This document shows, in pieces, positions 9,328 to 60,776 of a DNA stretch of 64,000 bases (within the stretch, counting starts at the first letter, position 1; every line of letters begins with the position of its first letter). The notes under the pieces were generated by a model, which did no database searches, was not told the DNA's origin, and saw only the letters and a list, made by a program, of their open reading frames with translations. The position numbers and the translations under genes are program-made. This stretch comes from Spirochaetales bacterium (lineage in GTDB: Bacteria; Spirochaetota; Spirochaetia; DSM-2461): assembly GCA_003247135.1 (NCBI GenBank), contig QKAW01000057.1, positions 1 through 64,000 of the forward strand. Reading direction: 5' to 3'.

Positions 9328-9924
9328 TACTCTTAAGTATTTAAAATCATCAAAATCCTTAACCATAAAGGGGTTGTTTAATTTTTCAGCCCCTAATGTT
9401 GTGTTTGTTGATGGAAAATTTTTATCTAGTAGACTTTTGTAATAACTGGAATCAAGACCTTGTGAATCAAGAAACTCAATTGAGTAGTTTAAATATTCAT
9501 GGCCAGGATAAATAATTGTTTCATCCGGGAGTTGTGCCAGTGTTTGTAATGAGTTATGGAACTCTCTATAGTCCCCTTCAAAAAGTCTCCCGCATAAACC
9601 TGTAAATAGAGTGTCTCCTGTAAAAAGTGCCTTCAATTTAGGGAAATAGAAGCAACAGGAGTCCTTTGTATGCCCAGGTGTATCTATTTTCAAATACTCC
9701 TTATGATTGATTACCTTTACTCCATAAACCTTTTTGAGTTCTTTTGCTCCATCTATATGGTCGTAATGATTGTGGGTTAGCAGTATTTCAATATTTTTTA
9801 TATCACAACTAATTAAAGCCTTGTTTACCGGCTCAAACTCTCCCGGGTCAATAACAGTTGCGTAATCCCTATATGTAATTATATATGAGTAGTTATTCTC
9901 CAGTGTCTGTACAATTTTTATCAT
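9316..9924 (-). CDS. MBL-fold metallohydrolase, glyoxalase II-like
   Basis: A 202-residue metallo-beta-lactamase fold enzyme. All metal ligands are present: THNHYDHID (HxHxDH), TPGHTKDS, the bridging Asp in FTGDTLF, and YPGHEYLN. The GLCGRLFEGD loop is typical of hydroxyacylglutathione hydrolases, which hydrolyse thioesters; at 202 residues it lacks the full glutathione-binding C-terminal domain. It is expressed with ccdA: the two genes share one base (TAATG). Confidence 0.85.
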   Translation of the reverse strand: MIKIVQTLENNYSYIITYRDYATVIDPGEFEPVNKALISCDIKNIEILLTHNHYDHIDGAKELKKVYGVKVINHKEYLKIDTPGHTKDSCCFYFPKLKALFTGDTLFTGLCGRLFEGDYREFHNSLQTLAQLPDETIIYPGHEYLNYSIEFLDSQGLDSSYYKSLLDKNFPSTNTTLGAEKLNNPFMVKDFDDFKYLRVLKG

Positions 9925-10853
9925 TATAGCCCCTGAAATGTTAAATATTTTAAAACAGTCTCTCCGTAATTAATAATATGAAAATAAGTTATTACTGAAA
10001 AAATCAGAAAGAATAGTGTCAGTAGTATAGAGAAATAGGGTTTCTTTCCAATTTTTACTTTTTTAACTGAAAATCTTGTTATAACCAATACAATCAGAAG
10101 GTCAATCATGCCCAAAATTCTATCAAATATAATATAATTCAATTTGTACCAGTCTGAAAAATTGTAAGCCATTCTAAATAAAAATGCATTCAGGTTACTT
10201 AATCGATCCAGAAAAATCAGGATTCCAATAAAGGTTATAAAAATACCGCTGAAAATCTTAATCTTATTCATCTGGTTTTTAATTATTTTACTCTTCTCTT
10301 TAAATTTTGAGATAAAAAGACCGGATAATAGAAATGGCAGTCCCAATCCTGCAGAAAAAACTAATAAGAGAGCTAATCCGCTAAGAAGAGTTTGGGAATT
10401 CCCGGCAAGAAATAAAATTGATGCTAATATTGGTCCTATACATGGTGACCAACCGGCACCAAATGCCATTCCTAATAAAACGCTGCTTATTATTCCTCTG
10501 TTTTTTATTTTGTACTCAATTTTTTTCTGGGTATCTAAAATTTTAATAAAGCCAAAAATTGTATTTAATCCCAGAATAATAACTACAGAACCTGATACTC
10601 TGGATATGATTACTGCATAATCTCTAAAAGCAAATCCCAGTGTGCTAAAGGCAACACCCATAATTGAGAAAACTATTGAAAAACCAGCTATAAATCCCAA
10701 TATTAATGGGACAGCTCCTCTATTTCTTTTAAATCCGTCATCATAGGTTGCGGCTCCAATATATCCAATATATGATGGAATTATTGGAAAAATACATGGT
10801 GATAAAAAAGAGATAATTCCAGCAATAAATGCAATAAAAACATTAACTTCCAT
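9924..10853 (-). CDS. ccdA: CcdA/DsbD-like thiol-disulfide membrane transporter
   Basis: A 309-residue membrane protein with about eight spans. The first span holds the redox pair region SFLSPCIFPIIPSYIG and the repeat GAGWSPCIGPILASIL; each PC/SPC motif supplies one of the two membrane cysteines that pass electrons from cytoplasmic thioredoxin to the periplasm. Roles include cytochrome c maturation. The ATG at 10853 has AAGGAG; the reading frame extends upstream but without a ribosome site. A 17-bp sequence shared with the XRE promoter lies just upstream. Confidence 0.85.
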   Translation of the reverse strand: MEVNVFIAFIAGIISFLSPCIFPIIPSYIGYIGAATYDDGFKRNRGAVPLILGFIAGFSIVFSIMGVAFSTLGFAFRDYAVIISRVSGSVVIILGLNTIFGFIKILDTQKKIEYKIKNRGIISSVLLGMAFGAGWSPCIGPILASILFLAGNSQTLLSGLALLLVFSAGLGLPFLLSGLFISKFKEKSKIIKNQMNKIKIFSGIFITFIGILIFLDRLSNLNAFLFRMAYNFSDWYKLNYIIFDRILGMIDLLIVLVITRFSVKKVKIGKKPYFSILLTLFFLIFSVITYFHIINYGETVLKYLTFQGL

Positions 10854-10870
10854 ATATTCTCCTTGATTTT

Positions 10871-10887
10871 TGTCGCAAATAGCATCA
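10871..10887 (+). repeat. 17-bp direct repeat, copy 1
   Basis: TGTCGCAAATAGCATCA, identical to 11790-11806. Similarity extends upstream: CTTGA occurs at the same offset in both copies. It lies in the ccdA 5' region. On the minus strand it reads as an extended -10 (TG-C-TATTTG). Confidence 0.6.
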
Positions 10888-10927
10888 AAATAAAAATAAT
10901 TAAATTTTTTCATCAGGATTCTATTTA

Positions 10928-11365
10928 TTGGAAATTGTAAATAAAAAACAGATTGCACTGTTTATTAGGCATGTAAAGAATATTAACAGAATCCCTTTCT
11001 ATTATTATAGACTAAAATACTATAAAATTCACCTTATAACAGAGCTTTTAATTTCCTCCAATATTACTCTTAATGAAATTTTATTAATTCGTCGAGAGGA
11101 TATTGATTTTGATAAGAGAGTAATTAAATCAGTAAACAGGAATATTGAAATTTCGAATTATATAGGAGAAATATTAAAAATATATACTGATTTAATCCAT
11201 AAATCATCTACTGGAGTTATATTCAATTTTGATTCCAAATTTGCAACAAAGTTAAACAGCATATTCAAAAAATGTTCAGCTAAGGCAGGTATTCCTTTAT
11301 TGACCCTGGAATATATAGAGTCTCTACCAGTTTGTGTAAAAAAAGGGTTTAATCGAGAATTTTAA
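10928..11365 (+). CDS. Tyrosine-recombinase-like protein lacking catalytic residues
   Basis: A 145-residue protein. Residues about 39-70 (LLISSNITLNEILLIRRED then IDFDKRVI) follow the box-I pattern of phage integrases, but the catalytic Arg is Thr. The part that should carry His-x-x-Arg (KKCSAKAGIPLLTLEYIES) has neither, and no Tyr nucleophile motif follows. It is either a decayed integrase or a recombinase-fold protein used for binding. The start is the TTG at 10928 with AGGA ten bases ahead; no ATG is available. It lies between two 17-bp direct repeats. Confidence 0.5.
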   Translation: MEIVNKKQIALFIRHVKNINRIPFYYYRLKYYKIHLITELLISSNITLNEILLIRREDIDFDKRVIKSVNRNIEISNYIGEILKIYTDLIHKSSTGVIFNFDSKFATKLNSIFKKCSAKAGIPLLTLEYIESLPVCVKKGFNREF

Positions 11366-11367
11366 AA

Positions 11368-11748
11368 TTATTTCTTATTAGCTTTAATAAGATCATCCAG
11401 TGTTTTTAGGATATTACGCTTATTATGTTCGGGAAGTTCTTCTATCTCTTTTATTCTTTTTGTATATTTTAATGTAACTATCTCTTTTACAGTATCTTGA
11501 TGTTCAAACCCCAGAAGACTGTCGGTTGAAACTCCAAGGGCTAGTGCAATTCTGACAATCATTTCATCATAAATTCTTGATCTGCCTCTTTCATAGTCTG
11601 CAAGTGTTACACGGGTTATGCCTAATTTTTGGGAAAGTTGTTCTTGAGTTAAACCACGCTCTTTACGTAGTTCAGCTATTCTTTCACCTATGGTTTTACC
11701 ATCTTTGTTCTCAATTTCAGGTAAATCGTATTTAAATTTTCTAGGCAT
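11368..11748 (-). CDS. XRE-family helix-turn-helix regulator
   Basis: A 126-residue protein. The Cro/C1-type domain spans about residues 20-75 (RIAELRKERGLTQEQLSQKL, then GITRVTLADYERGR), with a charged helical C-terminal tail. It resembles single-domain phage or chromosomal repressors. Its ATG has no Shine-Dalgarno but TAAAAT lies exactly six bases upstream. A 10-8-10 perfect dyad covers this -10, so autorepression is likely (inference). Convergent with the recombinase-like gene, two bases apart. Confidence 0.85.
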   Translation of the reverse strand: MPRKFKYDLPEIENKDGKTIGERIAELRKERGLTQEQLSQKLGITRVTLADYERGRSRIYDEMIVRIALALGVSTDSLLGFEHQDTVKEIVTLKYTKRIKEIEELPEHNKRNILKTLDDLIKANKK

Positions 11749-11829: not shown

Positions 11830-12150
11830 CTATAATGAAGGAAGAATTTGTTTGTGTAAAGAGACATCAAAACTTTCAACATGCTGTGGTTTTCCATCGT
11901 TTAGAAAATCAAGCAGGTATTTCTTTTGACAGTGGGTGTCAAATGTTTTTTGATCATACCATGTCTCAATAAAAGTTATCTCCTCAGGGTTTTCAATGCT
12001 CTGATTTAACTCATATCTAATACATCCATCTTCCTGGGTTGCTAGTCTAATAAAACCATGTAAAATATCCAGTAGTTGTTCAACTTCACCTTTTTTTGCA
12101 AAAAATTTGGCGATACAAACTAATTGTGTTTCATTTTGTAAGAAATTCAT
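11830..12150 (-). CDS. Antibiotic biosynthesis monooxygenase (ABM/YgiN-like)
   Basis: A 106-residue dimeric ferredoxin-like protein. The ABM pattern is clear: an opening strand (LVCIAKFFAKKGEVEQLL), the EDGCIRYELNQSIENP segment and EITFIETWYDQKTFDTHCQ. Known members are cofactor-free quinol monooxygenases such as YgiN, or haem-degrading relatives. GGAGGG precedes the ATG. It stands alone upstream of the XRE gene. Confidence 0.85.
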   Translation of the reverse strand: MNFLQNETQLVCIAKFFAKKGEVEQLLDILHGFIRLATQEDGCIRYELNQSIENPEEITFIETWYDQKTFDTHCQKKYLLDFLNDGKPQHVESFDVSLHKQILPSL

Positions 12151-12443: not shown

Positions 12444-13022
12444 TTATCCACGGTGAATTATCAGAATATTATCTATACCCATCTCTTCCAATTTTTTTAC
12501 TATTTCGAAGCTTTTATTTATTGGAACATCTGGAAGCATAACCCTCATAATTCCTTTATTGCTCATGGATGTTTTGGGAGTAAATCCGGCATCCATCAGT
12601 CTTTTTTTCATAGTTGAAGCATAGGTCAGGTTTGAATAGGCCGCTACCTGAATATCCATTACCTGGGGTGGAGTCGGCATCTCAATTATCTCTAGTGAAA
12701 CATTAGCTGTTCCACTCTTTATCATATCAATATCTGTTGCAGCTTTTTGGGAAAGATCAATAACTCTACCTTCAACAAATGGTCCTCTGTCATTTATTCT
12801 TACCCTGGTCTTTTTTCCTGTATCCAGATTTGTAACTTCCACAATTGTGTTGAAGGGTAGTGTTTTGTGAGCTGCAGTGCTTTTATTTGTGTCAAATATC
12901 TCGCCATTAGCTGTCTGTCTCCCAACAAATTTTCCTCCATACCATGAGGCAACACCATTTAAATTATGGGAAAACATTAAAAATGGTATCAATATAAAAA
13001 ATATAAACAAAATTCTTTTCAT
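12444..13022 (-). CDS. rlpA: RlpA-like septal lytic transglycosylase with SPOR domain
   Basis: A 192-residue exported protein. After a signal peptide (residues 1-18) comes a double-psi beta-barrel with the RlpA signature: [19 protein letters not shown] and [19 protein letters not shown], including the catalytic Asp. Residues about 120-190 are a SPOR-like domain ([20 protein letters not shown]) for binding denuded glycan strands. RlpA cleaves such strands at the septum. There is no lipobox Cys, unlike in E. coli. It is divergent from lysS. Confidence 0.85.
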
Positions 13023-13084: not shown

Positions 13085-14668
13085 ATGAATAATAGACCTA
13101 AATCGACACATTGGGCGGATATAACCGCTGAAAAAATTATCAGAGAGAAAGGGGACAAGGAGCTATATACTTGCGCTTCTGGAATAACCCCTTCAGGTAC
13201 GGTTCATGTAGGAAATTTTAGAGAGATAATCTCAGTTGATCTGACCGTTAGAGCACTTAGGGATATGGGTAAAAATGTAAGATTTATTTACTCTTGGGAC
13301 AATTATGATGTTTTTAGAAAGGTTCCCAAGGATATGCCGAAGCAAGAGGAAATGGCAAAATATTTAAGAAAACCTATTGTTTTAGTACCAGACTTTCTGG
13401 ATGGTGAAGAAAGTTATGCTCGGGCAAATGAAAAGCGTCTGGAAAAATTACTTCCAGAAGTAGGTATTTACCCGCAATATATATACCAGGCACAAAAGTA
13501 TAGAAATAGTGACTACGCAGACGGAATGAAGACAGCTCTTCAAAACAGAGATGTTATTAGAAGAGAGCTTAATGGAAGCAGAACTTCTGATCTTCCGGAT
13601 GACTGGTGGCCTATTTCAGTGTTCTGTTCCCAATGTGACAAGGATACAACAACAGTTTTAGATTGGGATGGAGAATATGGCGTTCACTATTCCTGTGAAT
13701 GCGGTAATGACGAAACTGTAGATATGAGAAAAACACCATGGGTTAAACTTCCATGGAGAATTGACTGGCCAATGAGATGGGCTTACGAAGGTGTAGATTT
13801 TGAGCCTGCTGGAAAAGATCACCACTCTGACGGTGGAAGTTTTGATACAGCTAAACTAACCTGTAAAGAAGTTTATAATCATGAAGCACCTGTAACATTT
13901 CAGTACGATTTTATTGCTGTAAAGGGAAGAGGGGGAAAAATGTCCTCATCTGCTGGTGGAGTTGTGTCTTTAGCTGAAGTTCTGGAAGTTTACCAACCAG
14001 AGATTATCAGATTCCTTTTTGCCGGAACCAGACCAAATTCAGAATTCTCAATTTCATTTGACTTAGACGTATTAAAAATTTATGAAGACTATGACAAGTG
14101 TGAAAGAACTTATTTCTCAAAGCCTGAAAATGATAAGCAGATGAAAAAATGGGAAAAAGAGGCAAGAATATATGAACTTTCCCAGGTTGCAGAAGTTCCA
14201 ACAGAGATGCCATACCAGATTCAGATAAGACATCTTACATCTCTTTTAAATATTTATGCAGGAGATATTGATAAAGTAATTGAATCTTTAGGAGATGTTA
14301 AACCATCCCAAATTGAGAGATTAAAAAGAAGATGTCAATGTGCATGGAACTGGTGTAGAGATTTTGCTCCGGAAGATTTTAGATTCTCAATTAACGATGA
14401 GAATAGTGAACTTTTAGAGGTTACTGATCAGGAAAGATTAGTTCTGCAGAAACTAAACAAGGTTGTTGATGAAAACCTTGGTAAAGTAACTGAAAAAGAG
14501 TTTGGAGTTATGGTATATGACATTGCCAGAGAGCTTGAAATGGAGACAACCGTTATGTTTCCATTAGTATATAAAGCTGTAATTGGTAAAGATAATGGTC
14601 CAAGACTTGTATCATTTCTATCAACAATTGGTCCTTATAAACTAAGAAAAATTTTAAACCGATATTAG
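13085..14668 (+). CDS. lysS: Lysyl-tRNA synthetase, class I
   Basis: A 527-residue class I LysRS, which charges tRNA-Lys. The HIGH-type motif is SGTVHVGN (residues 37-44) and the KMSKS-type motif is GKMSSSAGG (about residue 284). A CxxC...CxC pattern (CSQCDKDT, YSCECGNDE; residues about 180-212) suggests a zinc knuckle. A helical anticodon-binding domain fills the C-terminal third. Most bacteria use an unrelated class II enzyme; the class I form is typical of archaea, spirochaetes and alphaproteobacteria. Monocistronic, followed by a hairpin terminator. Confidence 0.95.
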   Translation: MNNRPKSTHWADITAEKIIREKGDKELYTCASGITPSGTVHVGNFREIISVDLTVRALRDMGKNVRFIYSWDNYDVFRKVPKDMPKQEEMAKYLRKPIVLVPDFLDGEESYARANEKRLEKLLPEVGIYPQYIYQAQKYRNSDYADGMKTALQNRDVIRRELNGSRTSDLPDDWWPISVFCSQCDKDTTTVLDWDGEYGVHYSCECGNDETVDMRKTPWVKLPWRIDWPMRWAYEGVDFEPAGKDHHSDGGSFDTAKLTCKEVYNHEAPVTFQYDFIAVKGRGGKMSSSAGGVVSLAEVLEVYQPEIIRFLFAGTRPNSEFSISFDLDVLKIYEDYDKCERTYFSKPENDKQMKKWEKEARIYELSQVAEVPTEMPYQIQIRHLTSLLNIYAGDIDKVIESLGDVKPSQIERLKRRCQCAWNWCRDFAPEDFRFSINDENSELLEVTDQERLVLQKLNKVVDENLGKVTEKEFGVMVYDIARELEMETTVMFPLVYKAVIGKDNGPRLVSFLSTIGPYKLRKILNRY

Positions 14669-14722: not shown

Positions 14723-15412
14723 TTAGCTAGTCCAGTAAACTTCCCAACTACCTGTATTATCTACATTAAATTCTAACCTGAAATACCACCAACCAATAAA
14801 ATTATCTACACCAAATAGACTAGTTGAACTTGTTATGTTTTCTATTGTTCTGCCAACAGTATAATTTGCATCCCATAGAGTTTTGTAAAGAACTGAAGCG
14901 TCGACTTGTGAGTTAACATTAAATAGAAACATATGGCATTGCGCCCATAATATTCCTAGATTAATATAGCAAGTCTCACCTGTATACCCATACATTAAAG
15001 CATTACCTCGTAAATTATTGTTCCTAATCAATTGAATCTTTATTGATTTTGAAATTTTTTTGTAATCTTTTTTTTGGGAGCTTATTTTATCTCTATATTC
15101 ATCGGCTAGAGTTTGATTAATGCTTCTATCATTATTTATTCCTACTGTAGGATCTTCTATTAGAATTAATATATCTTTTTTATTACCAGTAAAAACTAAA
15201 GAAAAAACTTCATCTTTAGTAATATCAAAATCCTTCTTTACAGATATAATGTCTTCATTAAAACTGTTGTCTCTGTTTACATGATCATGATAAATCTCCC
15301 ATTCATTAGGAAGTTCTAAAATCTCACTTTTCTTATCGATATTATTTGTTGATAATGAGCATGAAAAGAACATTAAGATAACGAGTAAAGGTATTGTTGA
15401 ATTAAATTTCAT
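14723..15412 (-). CDS. Lipoprotein, paralogue of the one at 15960
   Basis: A 229-residue lipoprotein: hydrophobic signal followed by a lipobox ending FFSC (Cys near residue 18). It shares scattered landmarks with the product of 15960-16688: EDPTVGI against EDPQVGI, a YxGxxG-type stretch, and a C-terminal FIGWWYFRLEF against FLGWWKYEVLF. I know no named family. It overlaps the beta-barrel gene by 11 bp, so the three genes 16688-14723 form one operon. Surface location is inferred from the lipid anchor and the barrel neighbour. Confidence 0.7.
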   Translation of the reverse strand: MKFNSTIPLLVILMFFSCSLSTNNIDKKSEILELPNEWEIYHDHVNRDNSFNEDIISVKKDFDITKDEVFSLVFTGNKKDILILIEDPTVGINNDRSINQTLADEYRDKISSQKKDYKKISKSIKIQLIRNNNLRGNALMYGYTGETCYINLGILWAQCHMFLFNVNSQVDASVLYKTLWDANYTVGRTIENITSSTSLFGVDNFIGWWYFRLEFNVDNTGSWEVYWTS

Positions 15413-15956
15413 TTTTTGAGTCCTTTAAAGAGTATAGTATTGAGAAGCCAAGGGCTACTTTATTTTTATTAGTATTGAAGTAATCATTACTATTTCCGGA
15501 AAAATAAATAAAACTATAACCGATATCCAGAATATATTTAAAATGTTCTATTTTTTTCTCAAGTGAAATATTTACACCTAACAACTCATTTAAATTATTC
15601 TGACCTATATCATCAATTGCTAGATAAATTACATTACTTCCATTTATACCAATATTTAATTTGAAATTATCAAAATTAAAGATTGAGTAGGATACACCTA
15701 AGTTTGAGTTAAGGGTAATAACTGTCCTTCCAAGCATCGTATTTGTTTGTGGTGAGAAATAGCTGTCACTTGTATTTAAATCAAGGGAGAGATTTAAGTT
15801 ATCAATGCTGTATTGAACTCTTAATAATAAGTCACTAACAATAGCATCTTTATTTACAAAGTCTATATTCTCTTTTACACCTAATGATATTTCTGAAAAT
15901 AGAGTAAAATTTGCAGTTAATAACATCATAATAAAAACTGCTCTACCAATATTCAC
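15402..15956 (-). CDS. Outer-membrane beta-barrel-like protein, paralogue of 21665
   Basis: A 184-residue protein with a signal peptide ending near FSEIS (residue 22). The mature part is a series of amphipathic strands rich in Asn, Ser, Tyr and Phe, ending in a hydrophobic Tyr-rich strand, as in small eight-stranded barrels. It is close to the product of 21665-22195 along its whole length, for example FKLNIGINGSN against FKFNIGINGSN, and GQNNLNELLGVNISLEK against GQNNLNGLLGANISLEK. It lies between two related lipoprotein genes (overlap 11 bp on one side, 3 bp gap on the other). Confidence 0.75.
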   Translation of the reverse strand: MNIGRAVFIMMLLTANFTLFSEISLGVKENIDFVNKDAIVSDLLLRVQYSIDNLNLSLDLNTSDSYFSPQTNTMLGRTVITLNSNLGVSYSIFNFDNFKLNIGINGSNVIYLAIDDIGQNNLNELLGVNISLEKKIEHFKYILDIGYSFIYFSGNSNDYFNTNKNKVALGFSILYSLKDSKNEI

Positions 15957-15959
15957 CTA

Positions 15960-16688
15960 TTAATCCCTCCATCCAAATAAAAACGTAGTCTTTGTTGTTG
16001 GAGCTGAGAAAAGAACTTCATATTTCCACCATCCCAAGAATGGTCCTCCAGAAATATCAACTTGTCCGGATCCTAAAACAACTTCTTTTTCATCGACAAC
16101 TGTTGCAGTACCTCCCCATATAGGATAGTATCTGGTTTTAAAAATTAAATACCCTTCAGGAGTACTATTATCAATAATTGCTCCAGCTTTAGCATCACCC
16201 CACATAAATCCCATATCAATGCCTCCAATTGTTCCTGGTGCTAGAGTCATCTTGCCTTGCATATCATAGCCACTTAAAATCGCTCTTTTTGATTCGATGA
16301 TATAGTTGAAGTACACAGTTTCATTATTGGTTTTTGAATAACTAGAGCCATAATTTTTAAGTTTTTCTTGATATTCAATGACTTTTGAAGAATTACATGG
16401 ATTCTTCTGATCTAATATACCAACTTGAGGATCTTCAACTAAACATTCTAAAGCTTTTTTTGAACCTATAACCTCAAGTTTGATTTTATTTCCTTCTCTG
16501 TCGGTAAATTCTTTAAAAACCTTATATAGTCCAAGACCTCTTGTTTGAGCAGATGAATTATTTGTTAAGAGCCAGCCATTATCAATAATTTGCTCATTTT
16601 GATTTATGCTATTCTTTACATTTTGTAATTCCAAACTACATGCAGTAAAAATTAACAAACTAAACATTAAAAATACAATTTTTTTCAT
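15960..16688 (-). CDS. Lipoprotein, first gene of surface operon
   Basis: A 242-residue lipoprotein with lipobox IFTAC (Cys near residue 16). It is related to the lipoprotein at 14723 (shared EDPxVGI, FxGWW near the C-terminus). The mature region is rich in Gly and Trp and probably beta-sandwich-like. No family recognised. GGAG precedes the ATG. Its upstream region carries nine copies of a 10-bp A-tract repeat, which may bend the promoter or vary its strength (inference). Confidence 0.7.
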   Translation of the reverse strand: MKKIVFLMFSLLIFTACSLELQNVKNSINQNEQIIDNGWLLTNNSSAQTRGLGLYKVFKEFTDREGNKIKLEVIGSKKALECLVEDPQVGILDQKNPCNSSKVIEYQEKLKNYGSSYSKTNNETVYFNYIIESKRAILSGYDMQGKMTLAPGTIGGIDMGFMWGDAKAGAIIDNSTPEGYLIFKTRYYPIWGGTATVVDEKEVVLGSGQVDISGGPFLGWWKYEVLFSAPTTKTTFLFGWRD

Positions 16689-16701
16689 TTTTTTCTCCTA
16701 A

Positions 16702-16794
16702 TGATTTTATTTGATTTTATTTGATTTTATTTGATTTTATTTGATTTTATTTGATTTTATTTGATTTTATTTGATTTTATTTGATTTTATTTGA
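16702..16794. repeat. 10-bp tandem repeat, nine copies
   Basis: Nine exact copies of TGATTTTATT (16702-16791) followed by TGA. Read on the minus strand each unit has an AAAA tract, one per helical turn, which is the arrangement that produces intrinsic DNA curvature. It begins 14 bp upstream of the lipoprotein start codon at 16688 and touches a divergent promoter at 16791. The perfect identity of all copies points to recent slippage. Confidence 0.9.
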
Positions 16795-16819
16795 CAAAGT
16801 CAAACACTTTTTTTATGTT
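16791..16819 (+). promoter_or_regulatory. Promoter of the GNAT pseudogene
   Basis: TTGACA (16791-16796), 17 bp, TATGTT (16814-16819). TTTGAC-AAA-GTCAAA (16790-16804) is a dyad over the -35. It starts where the 10-bp repeat ends. Confidence 0.5.
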
Positions 16820-16843
16820 AGTAATAAATAGGACAAAATAATC

Positions 16844-17353
16844 ATGGAAAATATAATTATTATAGAAGCTAAATCAGATGATGCAAAAGCAGTTCTTGAT
16901 TTTAGATATAAAGTTTATGGAGAGACTGAGTATTTATTAAATACATCTGAAGAGTTTAATCATAAAGTTGAAAAGCAGGAAATATTTCTTCGTGATACTG
17001 AAAAAAGGGTTACTGGATGTTTTTTTTTGCTCTTAATGGTGATATGGTTGTTGGGATCGCTGGGCTTAACTGGACAAATAGTTCTAGAGTGCGTCATTAT
17101 GGTGAGTATGGAACTACTGTATTAAAGAGTTACTGGGGAAAAGGTATTGCAACAAATTTGTTTAGCCATATATTGAAAGAAGCACCAAATTGCAAAATAG
17201 AAAAGATTGGACTTGAAACATCTGAAATGAATGAATCAGCCTTAAAATTATATAAAAGACTTGGTTTTGTTGTGGAAGGAAACTAAAGTTGATGCATTTA
17301 AAATTAATGATGAATTAACTAATGTTATAGTTATGGGAAAGAGGTTGGTGTAA
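16844..17353 (+). pseudogene. GNAT acetyltransferase, two frameshifts
   Basis: Three pieces in different frames make one GNAT protein. Piece 1 (from 16844) ends in a T9 tract at 17020-17028. Piece 2 carries the acetyl-CoA loop region (SYWGKGIATNLFSHIL) and the ALKLYKRLGFVVEG end. Piece 3, after an extra A near 17279, reads TKVDAFKINDELTNVIVMG and stops at 17353. Ten Ts in the tract would join pieces 1 and 2. The second lesion is outside a long tract, so simple phase variation cannot restore the gene. Confidence 0.8.
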
Positions 17354-17476
17354 CACAGTAATCATTGAAATTTTAATTTAACTGACCGGTTTTCTGAACA
17401 CTTTCAGACCATAACAAAATGTAAAGAAAACACTCAATGAACAATACTCTAACTGACCATAAAGAAAAATATATCT

Positions 17477-17759
17477 GCAGAAGAGGAGTTTATTTTCGAC
17501 CTGCAGCTTTCTCTTGCAAAGAGGGAAATTAAACTCCTGTCTTAATTTCCGGGCTCATTATAGAGAGAGCCAAGATAGGAATTAAAAAAGCCAGGAATCC
17601 GGAAAACACATAGGCCGTCCTTTCGGATCAACTAAACTGACAGAACAACAAAAAAACAAAATTTATGCTTTTCTATCCTTGGGAGAAAAAAAGAGCACAA
17701 TCGCAAAAGTAGTTGGTATTAGCAGAACAACGCTATGTCATTATTTAAAATCTTTATGA
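17477..17759 (+). pseudogene. Serine recombinase (resolvase/invertase) C-terminal remnant
   Basis: The best piece is 17613-17759: GRPFGSTKLTEQQKNKIYAF, then LSLGEKKSTIAKVVGISRTT and a final LCHYLKSL. This is the HTH tail of a resolvase/invertase, with the GRP linker, the LT-E-Q helix and the GISRTTL recognition helix. Upstream in other frames are EEEFIFDLQLSLAKREIKLL and ERAKIGIKKARNP, which fit the end of the catalytic domain and the long E helix. The catalytic Ser part is missing. The tail overlaps the KAP gene's 3' end by 19 bp. 17354-17476 holds nothing else I can name. Confidence 0.75.
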
Positions 17760-20188
17760 CTTTTTACAATATGCATCATTTCTTCATAAAAACTTTTCGT
17801 ATGGTCACTGGAAAAATTTAATAATTTGTCCAAGACTTCTAATTTCTCTTCTAAATCAATATAGTCAAGTAATCCATCTTTAAATAATTTTACTCTTTCA
17901 TCTTTTTTGAATAGCATATCATTCCTTTCAACAACAAATGCAGGAGTTAAAATATTTAAATATTCCTTTTCTGTAATGAATTGTAGCATATTTTTATCAT
18001 TATCACTATACGAATCATATTCTGTATTATTTATTTCTACATACCACTGATAATAATTTTTTATATAATTTTTAGCTTTAGTAATAAGTTTATTTTCAAA
18101 GTCATTTGTAGGAACTTCAGAACTATCTATTTTAGAAAATCTATCTTCTAAAGATCTAAAAATGCTGTTTATAATAATTATTCTAAATAATGGATCTATT
18201 TCTGATGAATTAATATATTTATCAAACTCAATTAGTAGTTCATTTTTTACTGATAGAATACTAGAGCTATTAAAGAAATAAGTGTAAATATTACCGCAAT
18301 GTGATTGTAATTTATCAATATCAATTTTTTTTGATTTTTCATTCAACAACTTTAATAAGCTCATTTTATTTATAATGTCTGTTTTATCTTTAGAAAACTC
18401 AAGGATGTATTTAAATTGTTCCTCCTGGATACTTTTGAATGCAGTATTATTAAGATCACATATAACTGATTCAAATGTGGTCTCTTCTTTATAAAACTTT
18501 TCAATAATTTTTTTACACTCATACACCAGTAGATTTGAAATACTAAGTGAAAAGGTTGAAAAATTTTCTAAATAAAAATAAATATTTTCGTTGAAAGTAA
18601 TTTCATCTTCGGAAAAACTACTTTTAAAAAGAATTTTAAATAATTCTTTTAAATCATCATTCTCAAAAATCATTTTATATTCTTCTTTTTGTGAAATCAT
18701 TCTATTAATTTCATTTTCTTTTTTATCTACAATTTTATCTTCATAATATACAGCGGTCCTGGCTATTCTATCATAATCATAAATATCCTTTAGTCCTTTC
18801 AAATAGCTTGTGTCAGTATTTAAATATGAAGGATATTTAAAAACTATAATATTAATTTTTATAAATTGTTCTATATTTAGTTTCATTTCATCTAAATATT
18901 TAAAATGATAACTATTATTGGTATGCTTACTTATTATTGATTTTATTTGACATGTATAATTTCTATATTGTAAATCTAGTACATTTAACTTCGATATATA
19001 TTTTTTTATATCTCGAATATTATCAAAATATTTGTAGATTTTGTAACTTTCAATATGTTCTTCTGATACTTTAAAAATTACTCCCTTATAGTTTTTTTTT
19101 AATAATTTTTTTACTATGTGTTTTTTTTGATCATCATGTAAGGGTGGTATAATTCTTTCAAACTGAAAAAATTTCTCTAAATAGTCTTTATCTTTATTAA
19201 TAACTTTTAAAGTGTTTTCTTTATCAAAAGCAGTCACATATATAATATTTGAAAATCGTGCAGAATTTCTAATGATTTTTAAAACAGCATATAATTCTTC
19301 TGCATCTAATCTATCTAAATCATCAATAAAAACTAAAATTTTTTTATTATAGCTTGCTAAATATTCATCTATTTTTATATAAAAATCATTCTGATTATCA
19401 TAATTAAAGAGAGAGTTTAAAATGTTATTAGTACTAATTATTGTAGAAATATATTTGTTAACTATTTTTTCAAGATAATCATCCTCAAAATTATTAATAA
19501 GAAGATTAAAAAAAGTTTTTATTATGTGATCAACTGATGAACATCTCCAAGGATAAAAATTAATTATGTCATATTTAATATAATCGCTAAGTGAATTTTT
19601 TACAACATTTATAAAACTTGATTTTCCACAACCCCATCTCCCTGTTATTGCAATGCTTAAACTTTTTCCACTGTAGTCTTCAAGTATTTCTAAAAACGAT
19701 TCTAATAATATAGAAAAATCTTCTCTTAAATCTTCTTCTATATTATTTATTTCTAAGTCCTGAGAAACAATACTAGTACTATTTTCACCAGAATTTTTTC
19801 TTCTTTTCTTTATAATCAAGGATATTTTATATGTGGAAACAAATAATACAATTATGAATATAGATGTATAAAATGATTTATTAAAATATAAGTCTTTATT
19901 TTGTATAATATCCCTAATTTCATATACAGATTTGAACATATAAAAACAGAATAAAATTACAGAGTAGTAAAAATACTTATTATTTATAAAGCTAAAAGAC
20001 AATAAAATAATTAGACATATAGGGATTATATAATAAATTGCATTTGAAGGTGTGGCGCTAATGATATTATTTATAATAGTATCGACTTTTTTTAATCCAA
20101 AAATATATGTATTAATACCCTTTGAATAAATACAAGTAATAATGAATAAAATTGCTAGTATGATTTTATTTCGATTTGTTAAGTTCAA
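17741..20188 (-). CDS. KAP-family P-loop NTPase with four membrane spans
   Basis: An 815-residue protein. Hydrophobic segments at about 8-22, 51-68, 72-86 and 107-126 come first, then Walker A GRWGCGKS (183-190) and Walker B ILVFIDDLDRL (284-293) with the double Asp typical of KAP NTPases. The membrane spans inserted next to the P-loop domain are also a KAP feature. The C-terminal half is a large Lys/Glu/Asn-rich helical region without known motifs. KAP proteins include phage T7 exclusion protein PifA, so defence is possible, but no partner gene is present. Start TTG at 20188 with AGAGGA ahead. It is even more AT-rich than its surroundings and is flanked by broken genes, which suggests acquisition. 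Confidence 0.85.
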   Translation of the reverse strand: MNLTNRNKIILAILFIITCIYSKGINTYIFGLKKVDTIINNIISATPSNAIYYIIPICLIILLSFSFINNKYFYYSVILFCFYMFKSVYEIRDIIQNKDLYFNKSFYTSIFIIVLFVSTYKISLIIKKRRKNSGENSTSIVSQDLEINNIEEDLREDFSILLESFLEILEDYSGKSLSIAITGRWGCGKSSFINVVKNSLSDYIKYDIINFYPWRCSSVDHIIKTFFNLLINNFEDDYLEKIVNKYISTIISTNNILNSLFNYDNQNDFYIKIDEYLASYNKKILVFIDDLDRLDAEELYAVLKIIRNSARFSNIIYVTAFDKENTLKVINKDKDYLEKFFQFERIIPPLHDDQKKHIVKKLLKKNYKGVIFKVSEEHIESYKIYKYFDNIRDIKKYISKLNVLDLQYRNYTCQIKSIISKHTNNSYHFKYLDEMKLNIEQFIKINIIVFKYPSYLNTDTSYLKGLKDIYDYDRIARTAVYYEDKIVDKKENEINRMISQKEEYKMIFENDDLKELFKILFKSSFSEDEITFNENIYFYLENFSTFSLSISNLLVYECKKIIEKFYKEETTFESVICDLNNTAFKSIQEEQFKYILEFSKDKTDIINKMSLLKLLNEKSKKIDIDKLQSHCGNIYTYFFNSSSILSVKNELLIEFDKYINSSEIDPLFRIIIINSIFRSLEDRFSKIDSSEVPTNDFENKLITKAKNYIKNYYQWYVEINNTEYDSYSDNDKNMLQFITEKEYLNILTPAFVVERNDMLFKKDERVKLFKDGLLDYIDLEEKLEVLDKLLNFSSDHTKSFYEEMMHIVKSHKDFK

Positions 20189-20658: not shown

Positions 20659-20824
20659 CTTTTTTATAAATATAATTTACTGCTATAAAAAATAGCCGTC
20701 TATATACGTAAGAAATAAAAGTTATTTAGTTTTCTGGTTTAAAGAAACTGCTGGTTGCTAGAATGATATATTCAGTTGATTGAAAAAAGTATTAGCAAGG
20801 ATAAAATATTTTTATGGAGTAATA

Positions 20825-21496
20825 ATGGATATTGGACAAAGAATATATGAACTAAGAAATAACATAGGGTTAACACAAGAACAATTAGCAGAAAAATTAA
20901 ATATCTCAAGACAATCTGTTACTAAGTGGGAAAGTAATAGATCTGCACCGGATCTCGATAGACTCATCCAATTAAGTAATTTGTTTGGAGTTACTATAGA
21001 TTTTCTGATTAAAGGGAAAAATGAATATACAAGAGGTTTAAATTTTGATCCTGAAGATTCAGGAGTAATAAAAACATTTTTATGCACTGCAAAAAAGAAT
21101 ACATATGCGGCACACGGTTCCGAGATTCAATCAACTCGAATAAATTCTCACGATTTATTTTATGAAGAGGGGAAGTTCTCATATTTAGATTCATATTTTG
21201 GTGGAGAAAATTTTATTGGGGAAGAAGTTTTATATATTAATAAAAGTGCTTATTGGTCTATGAATTATATGGGAAGAGTTCTTGATGATAATTTTTCTGG
21301 TGATTTTCTTAAGAAATGCTTATTAGCTGTAAATCCTGATAATCCATTTAGAGGTCCTGAAATATACTAGGATGGTAATTTTACATATCATTGTTCTATA
21401 AAAGGATCTTTTAATTGGTTTACTGGGGAAGAAGAAATCTTTTTCCAAAATGAAAAAGTCTATGAGTGTATTTTTCATGGAGGTATAATAAAATAA
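20825..21496 (+). pseudogene. XRE regulator with DUF5680 domain, interrupted by one TAG
   Basis: Residues 1-65 are a Cro/C1 HTH (MDIGQRIYELRNNIGLTQEQ, then ISRQSVTKWESNRS). Residues from about 80 are a DUF5680-type domain (NTYAAHGSE, HDLFYEEGKFSYLDSYFGG, FSGDFL, NPFRGPEIY). A single in-frame TAG (21368-21370) stops it at residue 181. The same frame then continues DGNFTYHCSIKGSFNWFTGE to HGGIIK and TAA at 21496, which is the normal end of this family. GGAG precedes the ATG at 20825. A truncated product retaining DNA binding could still be made. Confidence 0.75.
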
Positions 21497-21664: not shown

Positions 21665-22195
21665 TTAAAATGTATAGAGTATTGAAACCCCAAGTTTTAT
21701 CCGATCGCTAATAGTCGATAAGACTTTTTCATTACTTTGAGATAAAATAATAAAATTATAGCCAAAGTCCACAAAATATTTAAATTGATCGATTCTTTTC
21801 TCCAGGGAAATATTAGCACCTAATAACCCATTTAAATTATTCTGACCAACATTATCAACTGTTAAGTAAACAGCATTACTACCATTTATTCCAATGTTAA
21901 ATTTAAAATTATTTATGTTAAAAATTGAGTACGATAGGCATAAATTGGAGTTAAGGGTTGTAACTATTCTAGGTAATATAGAATCAGTAGTAGAGAAATA
22001 ATTTTCACTTGTATTTAATCCTAGTGATATATTTAAATTTTCAAAGTTATATAGTGTTATTATAGATAAATCACTAACTAACGCATACTGGTTGATAAAT
22101 TCAAAACTATCCTTAACACCAAAAGAGATTTCTGAAAAGATTGAAAAGTTTAAAAAAAATAAGGACAATACGATAAATTTTCGTAATTTTAACAT
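21665..22195 (-). CDS. Outer-membrane beta-barrel-like protein, solo paralogue
   Basis: A 176-residue protein closely similar to the one at 15402 across its length, including the signal peptide end (FSEISFGVK against FSEISLGVK) and the GQNNLNGLLGANISLEK stretch. Here no lipoprotein gene accompanies it. Strand-like amphipathic segments and a terminal hydrophobic strand suggest a small outer-membrane barrel. GGAG lies 12 bases before the ATG, a little far. A duplicated copy moved within the accessory region is the simplest account. Confidence 0.7.
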   Translation of the reverse strand: MLKLRKFIVLSLFFLNFSIFSEISFGVKDSFEFINQYALVSDLSIITLYNFENLNISLGLNTSENYFSTTDSILPRIVTTLNSNLCLSYSIFNINNFKFNIGINGSNAVYLTVDNVGQNNLNGLLGANISLEKRIDQFKYFVDFGYNFIILSQSNEKVLSTISDRIKLGVSILYTF

Positions 22196-22612
22196 TTATT
22201 AATATCTCCATTCAATTAAAAATTACTGAATCTCAAAAAAGATACACTGTATATTTCCTCTTGAGTTGAAACGGAAACTGATAATTTATATAGCATTTTC
22301 ATGTTTACACTATTTAGAAATTATAACTTTATAAAATTTTTTCCTGATTATTTGATTATATTTGATAATTCAAGGAAGTGTCAAATATATTTCTATTGTC
22401 GATTTATTTAGTAAGTGTAACTAGTTTAATATTATTATGATTTATTGTTAAAAATACACCAGTATTAATGATGCAGGTATTTTTTTGAAAATCTAAAAAT
22501 ACTGGTAATTGATGAATCTCTTAATTAAAGTACCCCTACAGTAATCTTCTACAAACCCTGTACTGCGTGATAGAATTAAATTATACTCACCGTTCATTGT
22601 TCGGGAGATTGA
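22196..22612. other. Intergenic region without a recognisable gene
   Basis: 417 bp of AT-rich sequence. It has one clear inverted repeat, ACCAGTATT (22458-22466) with AATACTGGT (22498-22506), too widely spaced for a standard terminator. A variant of the TTTGATTTTAT theme appears near 22350, but I see no tandem array. Confidence 0.5.
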
Positions 22613-23100
22613 ATGAATAGAGACTTTACAATAGATTCTCAAGTTAAACTGATACAAATTACTCAAATTGATAGCAAACTCGTTACTGAGATTAAGGGAG
22701 TTTTATCAGACGAAAATGTACATAGATATCTACCATTTAAATCTTCACCAAATGAAACAGAAGTCATAACCTTTTTAAACCGAATTATGGGTGCAAAAGC
22801 TATTCTCTGGGGTATTGTATTTAACAATGATTTTATTGGGATAATAGATTTAATCAATATAGATAAAGGTTCAACATATCTTGCATATTTTATAGCTCAA
22901 AAGTATCAGGGGCGAGGGATAATTTCTTCAGCAATAAGTCATGTTACAAAATTTGCTTTTAATATGCTGAATTTGACTGAAATTAAAGCTTCTATAGTAT
23001 CGCGTAATATTGCCTCTAGACGAGTCCTGGAAAAAAGGTTAATTTTGATGGTATCGATGACGTAGTTCAGTTATATATTTTAAAAAAGTGTAAGTTATAA
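22613..23100 (+). pseudogene. GNAT acetyltransferase (RimJ/RimL type), 3' frameshift
   Basis: The main frame from ATG 22613 carries an N-terminal HRYLPFKSSP segment, a central WGIVFNNDFIGIIDL strand pair, the acetyl-CoA loop AQKYQGRGI (about residue 97) and the ASRRVLEK helix. At an A6 tract (23031-23036) the frame shifts and would end at 23065; one more A restores KVNFDGIDDVVQLYILKK and a stop at 23098-23100, the expected family end. It may be partly active. A deleted copy lies at 24211. Confidence 0.7.
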
Positions 23101-23382
23101 TGAAAATCAAACAGCATTAGATATATCAATCGGAAATAAATTTATGATTGCATAACTATATTAAATAAGGCTTATCAAAACCTTAAAATTGTTAACTGAG
23201 GAACTTTACGCATATATTTGGGCAAGATACTACTTGTAAAAAACTTTTCTGTTGGAGGTGTTTTCCTGTTATCCATTATTGAAGAATGTTTATCCTAGAA
23301 CTTCAGTAGCATTTTTCTCAAAGGATCAACTCTTACTAGTTAATGAACTTTATTGTATTCTCAATGAATGGAATTAGTAATA
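23101..23382. other. Intergenic region without a recognisable gene
   Basis: The bases after the GNAT stop encode a seven-codon stub (ATG at 23100) that matches the start of the small membrane protein at 24537, so the ancestral pair was GNAT plus small ORF. The rest of the stretch shows no coding signal I can support. Confidence 0.45.
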
Positions 23383-23427: not shown

Positions 23428-23727
23428 ATGACTTTAAGTGACACACCACAGCAATTTCATAAAGATATCTCAAGTGCAGTATCCTATTTAAATTCATTAG
23501 GGTTAGATGAAGTTTATTTATTTGGATCTTTAGCAAAAAATGAAGCAACTAATGATTCAGACATCGATATAGCTGTTAGGGGTATACAACCAAAAGATTT
23601 TTTCACGGTTTACGGAGAATTGCTCATGAGATTATCTCATCCTGTAGATCTTATTGATTTAGATCTGCAATCATCCTTTGGGGAGAAACTCGCAAATAGT
23701 GGTGAATTAAAAAGAGTATATTTATGA
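23428..23727 (+). CDS. MNT-domain nucleotidyltransferase antitoxin (MntA-like)
   Basis: A 99-residue minimal nucleotidyltransferase. The signature LFGSLAKNEATNDSDIDIAV (about residues 32-51) has the GS and DxD residues that bind ATP and metal; PVDLIDLD near residue 74 gives the third Asp. In HEPN-MNT toxin-antitoxin pairs this protein adds AMP to the HEPN RNase and silences it. The gene overlaps the next one by four bases (ATGA). It appears intact while its partner is broken. Confidence 0.85.
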   Translation: MTLSDTPQQFHKDISSAVSYLNSLGLDEVYLFGSLAKNEATNDSDIDIAVRGIQPKDFFTVYGELLMRLSHPVDLIDLDLQSSFGEKLANSGELKRVYL

Positions 23728-24140
23728 CCTTCGATGAAAGAATTGAAGCTGAAATCACAAATATCAGAACTGAACTGGAAATAGTACAGATACTAAATAA
23801 AAAGCTTAATTCAAAATTATCATTAGATTGTATCGAGGTAAGAGCTGCTGCATTATCGTTAATATCCATTTATAACGGAGTCGAAAAGGTCTTAGAAAGA
23901 ATTATCAAAGCAAAATATACCTTCAGTAGTAGTTCAAATTGACATGTAGAACTCTTAAAATTTTCAAGAGATATGAATATAATTAGTGAAAGTGTTTATA
24001 AAAACTTAAAAAGTTATTTAGCTTTCAGGCATTTTGTAAGACATGCTTATAGTTTTGAGATAAATTCAAAAACTATAGAATCTGTACTTACGATGGTTCC
24101 TAATTTAATAGAAAATTTTATACAAGAATTATCCTATTAA
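23724..24140 (+). pseudogene. HEPN (HepT-like) RNase toxin with in-frame TGA
   Basis: 138 codons of one frame with TGA at codon 73 (23940-23942). Before it: MTFDERIEAEITNIRTELE and the helix ending IYNGVEKVLERIIKAKY. After it: HVELLKFSRDMN, then the RNase motif RHFVRH (R102-x4-H107) and a final helix, stop at 24140. Relatives have Trp at the TGA position (WHxxLL), so TGG to TGA is the likely single change. The Arg/His active site would be lost in the truncated 72-residue product. Confidence 0.75.
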
Positions 24141-24210: not shown

Positions 24211-24537
24211 ATGTTACAGTATACAAGATTAAATATTTCTCTGTTGATTCAATCATACTTAACAATAGATAAACTGATACAAATTACTCAAATTGACAGC
24301 AAACTCGTTACTGGGATTAAGGGAGTTTTATCAGATGAGAATGTATACCGATATCTACCATTTAAATCTTCACCAATAACTCATGTTACAAAATTTGCTT
24401 TTAATATGCTGAATATGTCTGAAATTAAAGCCTCAGTTGTATCGCGTAATAGTGCCTCTAAACGAGTCCTGGAAAAAAGTTTAATTTTGATGGTATCGAT
24501 AGTTCAGCTATATATTTTAAAAAGGAGTAAGTTATAA
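24211..24537 (+). pseudogene. Deleted duplicate of the GNAT at 22613
   Basis: From about 24261 the sequence matches 22640-23100 closely (KLIQITQIDSKLVTGIKGVL). A clean 186-bp (62-codon) in-frame deletion after KSSP removes the core including the acetyl-CoA loop, and the 3' end carries the same A-tract frameshift plus a 5-bp deletion. The original start codon is gone; the open frame begins at an unrelated ATG (24211). The stop overlaps the next gene (TAATG). Confidence 0.75.
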
Positions 24538-24695
24538 TGAAAAACAAGCTATTTTTAATTGCTGGTGTATGTTTTTATGCTGCATCAATCGTCTTTTTTC
24601 TGACTTTGACAGAGAATAAAGTTATTTTCATGAGTGCTTTTGCTACAATTGGAACAGCTTTTATTGTTTTGTATAATACAAGGAAAAAGAGCTAA
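24537..24695 (+). CDS. Small membrane protein, 52 aa
   Basis: The product begins MKNKLFLIAGVCFYAASIVF and has two hydrophobic helices (about 4-22 and 29-46) and a basic tail ending TRKKS. AAGGAG lies ten bases before the ATG. It directly follows the GNAT remnant (TAATG overlap), and a stub of the same start follows the other GNAT copy, so the two were a pair. Function unknown. Confidence 0.55.
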   Translation: MKNKLFLIAGVCFYAASIVFFLTLTENKVIFMSAFATIGTAFIVLYNTRKKS

Positions 24696-24778: not shown

Positions 24779-25396
24779 TTATTTAGAGTAGAACTCAACA
24801 ACAACCTGTTCGTTAGCAATTGTATCAATATCTGTTCTAAATGGAATTCTTTCAACTTTTCCTTTTAGGCTATCAGCTTCAAGAGATAACCAAGCTGGAA
24901 CTGGTCTACCAGATTTAGAGATATTCTCTCTAACCATTTTTACAGAAGTATCAGCTTTTTTAATTTCGATAATATCCCCTTCTCTTACAATTGCAGAAGG
25001 AATATTTAATTTTCTACCATTAAAAACAACATGACCGTGGCTTACTAATTGTCTAGCCTGGCTTCTTGTTGTTGCCATACCTAATCTGTAAATAACGTTA
25101 TCTAATCTTCTTTCTAACATGATCATCATGTTATCACCAGTTAAACCTGGTAATGCTTTTGCTTTTAAGAAAGAGTTATAGAATTGCTTTTCAGACATTC
25201 CATAAGCAAATCTAATCTTTTGCTTTTCATTTTGTTGTTTACCGAAGTCACTAATTTTTGATTTAGCTCTTCCACCTCGTTCCTTACCAGGACCCTGAGG
25301 TTTTTTCTTAAGTAATTTATCGTATTTACTGTTACCGTAAATGTTGACGCCTAATCGACGGACAATTTTACCTTTAGCTTTGGTGTTTCTTGCCAT
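24779..25396 (-). CDS. rpsD: 30S ribosomal protein S4
   Basis: A 205-residue S4, the 16S rRNA primary binder of the 30S body. The N-terminal basic part (RRLGVNIYGN, KISDFGKQQNEKQKIRFAYG) and the S4 RNA-binding domain (MLERRLDNVIYRLGMATTRS then QARQLVSHGHVVFNGRKLNI, residues about 93-133) are intact; the C-terminus is normal. It lacks the N-terminal Cys zinc finger, so it is the C-minus form. The gene is alone rather than in the usual S13-S11-S4-rpoA cluster. GAGAGGT precedes the ATG. Confidence 0.95.
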   Translation of the reverse strand: MARNTKAKGKIVRRLGVNIYGNSKYDKLLKKKPQGPGKERGGRAKSKISDFGKQQNEKQKIRFAYGMSEKQFYNSFLKAKALPGLTGDNMMIMLERRLDNVIYRLGMATTRSQARQLVSHGHVVFNGRKLNIPSAIVREGDIIEIKKADTSVKMVRENISKSGRPVPAWLSLEADSLKGKVERIPFRTDIDTIANEQVVVEFYSK

Positions 25397-60023: not shown

Positions 60024-60776
60024 GTGAAAAAGTTTTTTATATTTATATTTGTTTTAATTACTGGTGTTTCAATTTCTTTTGGACAGTCTGATGAACTTTT
60101 GGATAAATTATATCAGAATGATCTGGCAGATACTTTTTATACTTCGTTGATTGTTTTACAAGCTTCTGGAAACTTGAGTGATGAAGCTTCCTTAGAAGAT
60201 GCAAAAGAGTTTCTTATGGGTACTAAATGGGGAGAATCTGTTTTAAAGGATGAAGGTTTTATCACTACCGGTGGGTTTTCATTACTTGTAATGGAGTCCT
60301 TCAATCTTCCTCATGGATTAATATATAATATTCTACCTATTAGAAGGTATGCTCTTAAAGAGATGGTTTATCTTGGTTATTTAGTTGGGAATCCCTATTC
60401 TGATGATTTAATGTCCAGTTTTGATGTTATTTATGCTTTATCATCTATTCCTGTTGATGAGAATATCAATAAAAATTATGTAAGTCCTGTGCCTGAAGTT
60501 GAACCGACTACAGTTGAACCAGCTAAAGTTGAACCAGCTAAAGTTGAACCGGCTAAAGTTGAACCGGCTAAAGTTGAACCGGCTAAAGTTGAACCGGCTA
60601 AAGTTGAACCGGCTAAAGTTGAACCTGTTACAGTTGAACCAGCTAAAGTAGAACCAGCTAAAGTAGAACCAGCTAAAGTAGAACCAGCTAAAGTAGAACC
60701 TGTTACAGTTGAACCGGCGACAGTTGAACCGACTACAGTTGAACCGACTACAGTTGAACCAGCTACAGTTGAGTAG
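60024..60776 (+). CDS. Secreted protein with VEPxx repeat tail
   Basis: A 250-residue protein. Signal peptide (residues 1-20), then a helical domain of about 135 residues without known family, and from residue 159 eighteen copies of a five-residue repeat ([20 protein letters not shown]) to the C-terminus. Extended Pro-rich repeats of this kind can span periplasm or cell wall, like TonB-type linkers. Start GTG at 60024, chosen because GAGAGG sits six bases ahead. It follows the FecR gene by 42 bp and probably belongs to the same unit. Confidence 0.65.
60498..60767 (+). repeat. 15-bp coding tandem repeat, 18 copies
   Basis: Eighteen units of the type GTTGAACCGGCTAAA with a few synonymous (GTT/GTA, CCG/CCA) and coding variants. 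Blocks of identical variants lie next to each other, which indicates recent unit duplication. Because the unit is a multiple of three the frame is kept whatever the number. Confidence 0.9.

Follow-up and report, generated by a model that had tools for sequence, protein, structure and literature searches.

What is a run of nine identical 10-bp repeats doing in the short space between two divergently oriented genes of a spirochaete, how did it come to be there, and does it resemble repeats already described in other bacteria? The array in question lies in a 64,000-nucleotide stretch of DNA (hereafter the 'window'), from a genome assembly of 2,693,952 bases (2.69 Mb) in 58 contigs with a completeness of 71%. 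A preliminary description of the window had drawn attention to the repeats and had proposed that they bend the DNA strongly. The analysis reported here favors, with roughly even confidence, a different reading: that the array arose when slippage multiplied the -10/start segment in an operon's promoter, giving a repeat leader whose length would be set by the number of copies.

The array and its position

The array spans 93 bp with 100% matches between its copies (nine full copies of TGATTTTATT and the TGA of a tenth, equal to 9.3 copies), which confirms the nine perfect repeats in a divergent promoter region that were first reported. The interval originally assigned to them, 16689-16843, corresponds to the whole intergenic space; the array itself covers only 16702-16794. 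Most of those 155 bp, bounded by the ATG of a predicted lipoprotein gene (16688, minus strand) and that of a GNAT gene (16844, plus strand), is nevertheless occupied by the repeats. At one end the array stops 13 bp before the ATG of the lipoprotein gene, and at the other the bases TTGA are common to the array and to the -35-like hexamer TTGACA (16791-16796) of the opposite gene, so that both the placement upstream of the lipoprotein gene and the contact with the opposite -35 hold as described.

In composition the array is 89% A+T with a 10-bp period, carries stop codons in all six frames and presents, on the minus strand, nine TAAAAT hexamers resembling a -10 element in 10-bp steps. Among the perfect arrays of period 5-60 in the 64 kb it is the longest (93 bp versus 89 bp for the next). 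That other long array (60496-60772; a 15-bp unit in 18.5 copies) lies within a reading frame and encodes KVEPA-like pentapeptide repeats. The array studied here has one of the features of simple-sequence 'contingency loci', which vary in phase by slipped-strand mispairing: a perfect short tandem repeat in a promoter, leader or reading frame. The coordinates of all features are collected in Table 1.

Table 1. Features at the array locus and at the paralogous locus (window coordinates)
Feature	Position	Strand	Basis or description
Tandem array	16702..16794	-	9.3 perfect copies; TGATTTTATT on +, AATAAAATCA on -
Predicted lipoprotein gene, first of putative operon	15960..16688	-	Signal peptide and cysteine, by reading of sequence
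Second gene of putative operon, exported, barrel-like	15402..15956	-	Reading of sequence; no family above cut-off
Third gene of putative operon, second predicted lipoprotein	14723..15412	-	Reading of sequence; no family above cut-off
-35-like hexamer TTGACT of lipoprotein operon	16798..16803	-	Consensus match; spacing as in paralogous promoter; just past far end of array
-10-like hexamer TAAAAT inside array	16774..16779	-	18 bp from TTGACT; consensus match
Predicted 5' leader, ~79 nt, mostly repeat copies	16689..16767	-	Start site inferred
Shine-Dalgarno-like AGGAG adjoining array	16695..16699	-	Sequence
15-bp dyad TTTGACAAAGTCAAA over both -35-like hexamers	16790..16804		Pattern TTTGACNNNGTCAAA unique in genome
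Promoter-like TTGACA-17-TATGTT of GNAT gene	16791..16819	+	Consensus match; array on upstream side
GNAT acetyltransferase gene, apparently split over two frames	16844..17286	+	Pfam and reading frames
Paralogous unexpanded promoter-like site	22342..22384	-	TTGACA (22384-22379), 18 bp, TATAAT (22360-22355), CAAATAATC, AGGA
Paralogous barrel-like gene	21665..22195	-	5.5 kb from array; behind unexpanded site

The predicted lipoprotein operon and the opposite gene

The three genes that follow the array on the minus strand (15960 > 15402 > 14723) appear to form a single operon with one promoter region, in which the array lies: the first lipoprotein gene is separated from the barrel gene by 3 bp, and the gene for the second lipoprotein overlaps the barrel gene by 11 bp. 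The first lipoprotein matches no Pfam family at E 0.1 and finds in NCBIfam only an N-terminal match below the cut-off (E 0.012), and its predicted structure has a mean pLDDT of 47. A search of 61 genomes found, besides the protein itself, only the window's second lipoprotein (the two are 24-25% identical to each other), with no relative in the 60 related genomes and none in a wider contig collection.

Read from the far end towards the first lipoprotein gene, the locus comprises TTGACT, 18 bp, TAAAAT, CAAATA, further copies of the unit and then AGGAG. Such promoter calls are based on agreement with a consensus, in DNA that is AT-rich, and eight promoter-like sites occur in a 600-bp region against 3.8 +/- 2.3 in shuffled sequences; the argument made below therefore rests on a paralogous site rather than on the consensus. 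A leader beginning near the predicted start would have no strong predicted structure: the 99 nt of 16670-16768 fold with a minimum free energy of -1.5 kcal/mol (z 0.39), and 120 of 200 shuffled sequences fold at least as well. When the whole region (16670-16843) is folded, at -11.4 kcal/mol (z -0.38), the Shine-Dalgarno sequence pairs with the far end, a pairing that would be relevant only if transcription began upstream of the array. The dyad TTTGACAAAGTCAAA, which spans the -35-like hexamers of both directions, is a possible operator; in a genome-wide search its pattern TTTGACNNNGTCAAA was found at this single site and is absent from the paralogous promoter.

On the other side, the GNAT gene appears to be broken, a point missed in the preliminary description. 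The match to Acetyltransf_1 lies in its second frame (17017-17286) and begins at profile position 35; its first frame (16844-17125) matches no family. A run of nine T residues (17020-17028) is found at the overlap of the frames, where the match changes frame; gene decay or faulty assembly could account for it, or it may be another site of slippage. Since the gene is apparently split, its expression may not matter.

A paralogous promoter without the array

The barrel-like protein of the putative operon (15402-15956) has a paralog in the window (21665-22195, 54% identical), and the intergenic stretch before that paralog provides a second view of the same kind of promoter. The window (64 kb, both strands) was scanned with the array's own 20-bp word in all 10 phases, independently of the sequence at the paralog. 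Apart from the array itself, the two highest-scoring places are 22347 and 22348, each matching at 18 of 20 positions (a match helped by the AT-richness of the stretch); they precede the paralogous barrel gene and are oriented to it as the array is to the operon. Six places outside the array match at 17 or more of 20 positions, five of them before the paralog, in an intergenic stretch of 417 bp that makes up 0.7% of the window, and one (18931) inside another gene.

The site so identified resembles the array locus in its parts: the spacing between -35 and -10 is again 18 bp, CAAATA follows the TATAAT, and AGGA follows the promoter-like segment as it does at the array (9 nt behind the -10 at the paralog, where no start codon stands directly after it). 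Across the genome and within one mismatch, ATCAAATAWAATCAAATA is confined to the array, with 8 sites, and to 22349-22366; a reversed control gave none. In the 2.69 Mb, the composite pattern TTGACW-18-TAWAATCAAATA is matched exactly at the array locus and the paralogous site and nowhere else; allowing up to two mismatches adds nine sites (one with 1 mismatch and eight with 2), against three for the control. Both of these patterns were written after the two sites had been seen, whereas the 20-bp-word scan was derived from the array alone.

Alignment of the two leaders gives support that depends on the number of array copies kept, in that the score was reached by 134 of 500 shuffled sequences with one copy, 4 with two, 5 with three and 22 with all nine. 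The lipoprotein gene's 3' end also has an 85% match, over 26 nt, ahead of the paralog. When both lipoproteins were compared by tblastn with the sequence there, no hit had an E value below 0.13, so a gene remnant at that place rests on those 26 nt. Taken from the sequence, the upstream regions of the two loci are probably paralogous. The unexpanded site itself repeats ATCAAATA at a distance of 10 bp, forming the near-duplicate ATCAAATATAATCAAATA, which we infer to be a natural seed for slippage. The common spacing, the best word match and the unique core at the paralogous site are the reasons for regarding the array as a slippage expansion of a -10/start segment, and its origin as an expanded promoter segment is fairly well supported by these comparisons.

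Predicted curvature of the array

The preliminary description had placed one A-tract in each helical turn and predicted strong intrinsic bending from it. The unit, however, reads G-ATTTT-ATTT, with ATTTT every 10 bp and a second tract, ATTT, about 5 bp away on the other face; every 10 bp thus brings two A-tracts, separated by roughly half a helical turn. Curvature was calculated with two models (Bolshoy and De Santis), each with two tilt signs, using GA4T4C as a bent control and GT4A4C as a straight one. The Bolshoy set with tilt +1 was left out because it fails this control (GA4T4C straight and GT4A4C bent); it ranked the array at the 76th percentile for shortening and the 86th for angle.

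For the remaining three sets, which behave correctly on the controls, the ratio of end-to-end distance to contour length is 0.983 (Bolshoy, one sign) and 0.957 and 0.909 (De Santis, either sign), which places the array at the 6th, 68th and 90th percentiles for shortening among 3196 93-mers of the window, and at the 24th, 69th and 87th for angle. Vector sums diverge in the same manner: the 37th percentile for Bolshoy, with 671 of 1000 shuffled sequences reaching the array, and the 96th for De Santis, with 52 of 1000. Phased A6 tracts gave ratios of 0.41-0.74 in the same three sets, the array being straighter in every one. Strong bending was accordingly set aside as the main explanation, the control-passing models disagreeing with one another over a range from straight to moderately bent that always falls below phased A6. 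The array may thus be moderately bent.

The unit in other genomes

Searches for the unit in the window's own genome, in its genus and in its phylum used one phase of the unit. The preliminary description had suggested looking through the rest of the genome for the same unit, and this turned up no second array in the 2.69 Mb: two copies at up to three mismatches are found in the array and at eight scattered sites, each with three mismatches, against seven for a reversed-pattern control. Many arrays of one unit, the arrangement of a repeat-based regulon, are therefore not found in this genome. Three copies at up to two mismatches occur in 1 of 392 genomes of the phylum, namely the window's own, and are absent from the 391 others; at up to three mismatches they occur in 1 of 3 genomes of the genus (one genome per species), again the window's own, and are absent from the two congeneric genomes. 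The suggestion that the expansion was recent fits the perfection of the copies together with their absence from these two congeneric genomes and the 391 others.

In a wider contig collection, three exact copies were also found in four unrelated genomes (two cyanobacteria and two archaea), in arrays of 3.5-4.7 copies; three of these lie outside open reading frames of at least 60 amino acids, and one overlaps the start of a predicted frame by 11 bp. No viral contig held three exact copies. Rfam returned no match at 16500-17500, and a literature search with the 10-mer TGATTTTATT gave, among the matches listed, no title or abstract opening about such a repeat.

The surrounding region

The nearest genes encode predicted lipoproteins, the GNAT protein, a KAP-type NTPase and a lysine--tRNA ligase. 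Iterons of plasmid partition or replication stand next to par or rep genes, and none of the latter is among these named neighbors. Thirteen proteins of the window were compared with 16 kb from one congeneric genome and with a contig of 10.4 kb from the other; both stretches surround lysS (13085-14668 in the window) and reach 11 kb and 3.8 kb past it. The proteins of 9924-10958 and 12444-13022 and LysS match in both, and that of 11368-11748 in one; that of 11830-12150 has no match in either. Eight of the proteins are encoded to the right of lysS, and the only match among them in these stretches is a weak one, between the helix-turn-helix protein of 20780-21370 and a left-side gene of one congeneric genome. 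The gene rpsD (24779-25396, identified by reading), to the right of the array here, is about 450 kb from lysS in one congener and on another contig than lysS in the other. Given these positions of rpsD and the lack of right-side matches, the roughly 10 kb from lysS to rpsD, in which the array lies, are not at this place in either genome. The barrel protein and the KAP-type NTPase (17741-20188) are each present in 1 of the 3 genomes of the genus, the window's own, the NTPase not being found in the two congeneric genomes.

Several further observations concern this stretch. The KAP-type protein, a P-loop NTPase, weakly matches QatA of the Qat anti-phage system, far below the cut-off. At 17586-17759 a match that narrowly misses the Pfam cut-off (HTH_7, E 9.4e-5) points to the helix-turn-helix part of a resolvase, which is perhaps the remnant of a mobile element beside the array. 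At 23428-24140 a nucleotidyltransferase (Polbeta, NTP_transf_2) is followed by a gene with an in-frame stop, the second piece of which matches HepT-like_2; the two look like a decayed MNT/HEPN toxin-antitoxin pair. A second GNAT gene (22613-23065) has a nearby partial duplicate, lacking an internal stretch, at 24267-24547 (92-93% identical to 22642-23110, in three blocks). The stretch between lysS and rpsD thus holds genes that look broken, among them the GNAT gene, the resolvase piece and the HepT-like gene.

Origin and function of the array

The preferred reading begins with a slipped-strand expansion of the -10/start-site segment in the promoter of a lipoprotein-barrel-lipoprotein operon. 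The ancestral segment would be the one still standing before the paralogous barrel gene, which already carries the 10-bp near-duplicate that could have seeded slippage. With the -35 hexamer TTGACT immediately outside the array at its far end, and the -10 hexamer TAAAAT within the repeats at 18 bp, the predicted start of transcription is near 16767; the six to seven copies that are left would form an A/U-rich, unstructured leader running up to the Shine-Dalgarno sequence. A change in copy number would then alter the length of this leader in 10-nt steps, possibly with use of additional -10 hexamers, and would leave the spacing between -35 and -10 as it was, so that translation or the level of the mRNA would be tuned and the operon would not be switched on and off. 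Judging from known biology, an open A/U-rich leader could favor ribosome binding or alter the stability of the message. A function as a modulator of expression is plausible on this basis.

A bolder form of the same idea, which we put forward only tentatively and consider rather improbable, holds that the promoter has multiplied its own -10/start segment, each of the nine copies bringing a -10 hexamer and the -35 determining where, at one end, the first start lies. An array of about two copies would place the Shine-Dalgarno sequence at or before the start site, a state close to the unexpanded paralog, and one of at least three would place it inside the message. Because the -35 would be fixed and slippage would move the start codon in 10-nt steps, copy number would set translation of the surface operon without touching promoter spacing.

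Three further explanations have to be weighed against the preferred one. The repeats might be a neutral by-product of slippage at an AT-rich 10-bp near-duplicate in a fast-evolving, decaying region, with no regulatory role. The region after lysS does differ in both congeneric genomes, broken-looking genes lie nearby, and the same unit has reached 3.5-4.7 copies in four genomes unrelated to this one; against this, nine identical copies stand between a -10-like site and the Shine-Dalgarno sequence of three open genes, where a neutral expansion would have no particular reason to occur, although nothing can be concluded from a single case. We regard the neutral explanation as somewhat unlikely. 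An unlikely role is that of a phased A-tract element, a bent or 'UP-like' sequence stimulating the opposite TTGACA-17-TATGTT with a strength tuned by copy number. Its proximity to the opposite -35, its A+T content, its period and the De Santis values, by shortening and by vector sum, would suit such an element, but there are two A-tracts per turn, the control-passing Bolshoy calculation gives a straight path (the Bolshoy vector sum stands at the 37th percentile), and the gene that would be stimulated is the one apparently split over two frames.

Very improbable, finally, is an array that binds a regulator, whether as an iteron-like operator or as a target of an RNA-binding protein, as has been suggested for the TAACTGA repeats of Beggiatoaceae. 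The regular 10-bp spacing, the two-copy version kept in the paralogous promoter and the unique 15-bp dyad at the far end would all accord with it, as would a position before a start codon like that given in PMC4679880. The genome, however, offers no further sites from which a regulon could be formed, the dyad is confined to the array locus, and the Rfam comparison of the region gave no match.

Relation to known repeats and significance

Several described systems bear on these readings. In Moraxella catarrhalis, uspA2 carries AGAT repeats in its 5' untranslated region, in 6-23 copies depending on the strain, with the highest expression at 18 copies in one strain (PMC4679880, citing Attia and Hansen 2006). 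The array resembles them as a short tandem repeat in the leader (here a predicted one) of a surface-protein gene, and a uspA2-type layout, with repeats between start site and Shine-Dalgarno sequence, is what TTGACT-18-TAAAAT and the paralog together predict, the start site being itself a prediction. The two differ in the unit (10 bp here versus 4 bp), in the -10-like hexamer contained in each copy here, and in that variation and its effect were measured for uspA2, while the present array is known from sequence. The 7-bp promoter repeats of hmw1A and hmw2A in Haemophilus influenzae (10-63 copies in one table), where more copies generally lowered measured expression (PMC10127715), likewise are tandem repeats in the promoter region of surface-protein genes; their unit is different, and the likeness is one of position and gene type, not of protein comparison.

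The lkt promoter repeats of Mannheimia haemolytica, present as 3 or 4 units in 17 tabulated strains, also stand in tandem next to a promoter and have A-tracts in phase with the helix; it has been proposed that they vary and tune the promoter (PMC2697988). They lie upstream of the core promoter, whereas the array is on the start-site side of the predicted promoter of the operon. For the opposite promoter the closest model is another promoter-adjacent repeat, the T-tract near the -35 of Helicobacter pylori sabA, with a reported effect on polymerase binding that tunes promoter output (PMC4081817); that tract is a homopolymer, as opposed to the 10-bp unit found here by inspection of the DNA. The Beggiatoaceae TAACTGA repeats (a 7-bp unit, suggested to have a translational role) share with the array the form of intergenic direct repeats just before start codons, and occur in 169 sets in one genome as compared with the single array here (PMC4679880).

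Judged by its position and by the predicted type of its genes, the array fits as another example of the known repeats that tune expression of surface genes, not as a new kind of element. What is distinctive is the 10-bp unit carrying a -10 hexamer, along with an unexpanded sister promoter in the same window. The two paralogous regions would constitute a 'before-and-after' pair for a promoter acquiring an array, a near-duplicate at one and nine perfect copies at the other. If the predicted layout is true, with the repeats on the start side of the -35, promoter spacing would be protected and only the leader would vary; and if copy number changes expression, this would be another bacterial lineage that tunes its surface proteins by repeat length.
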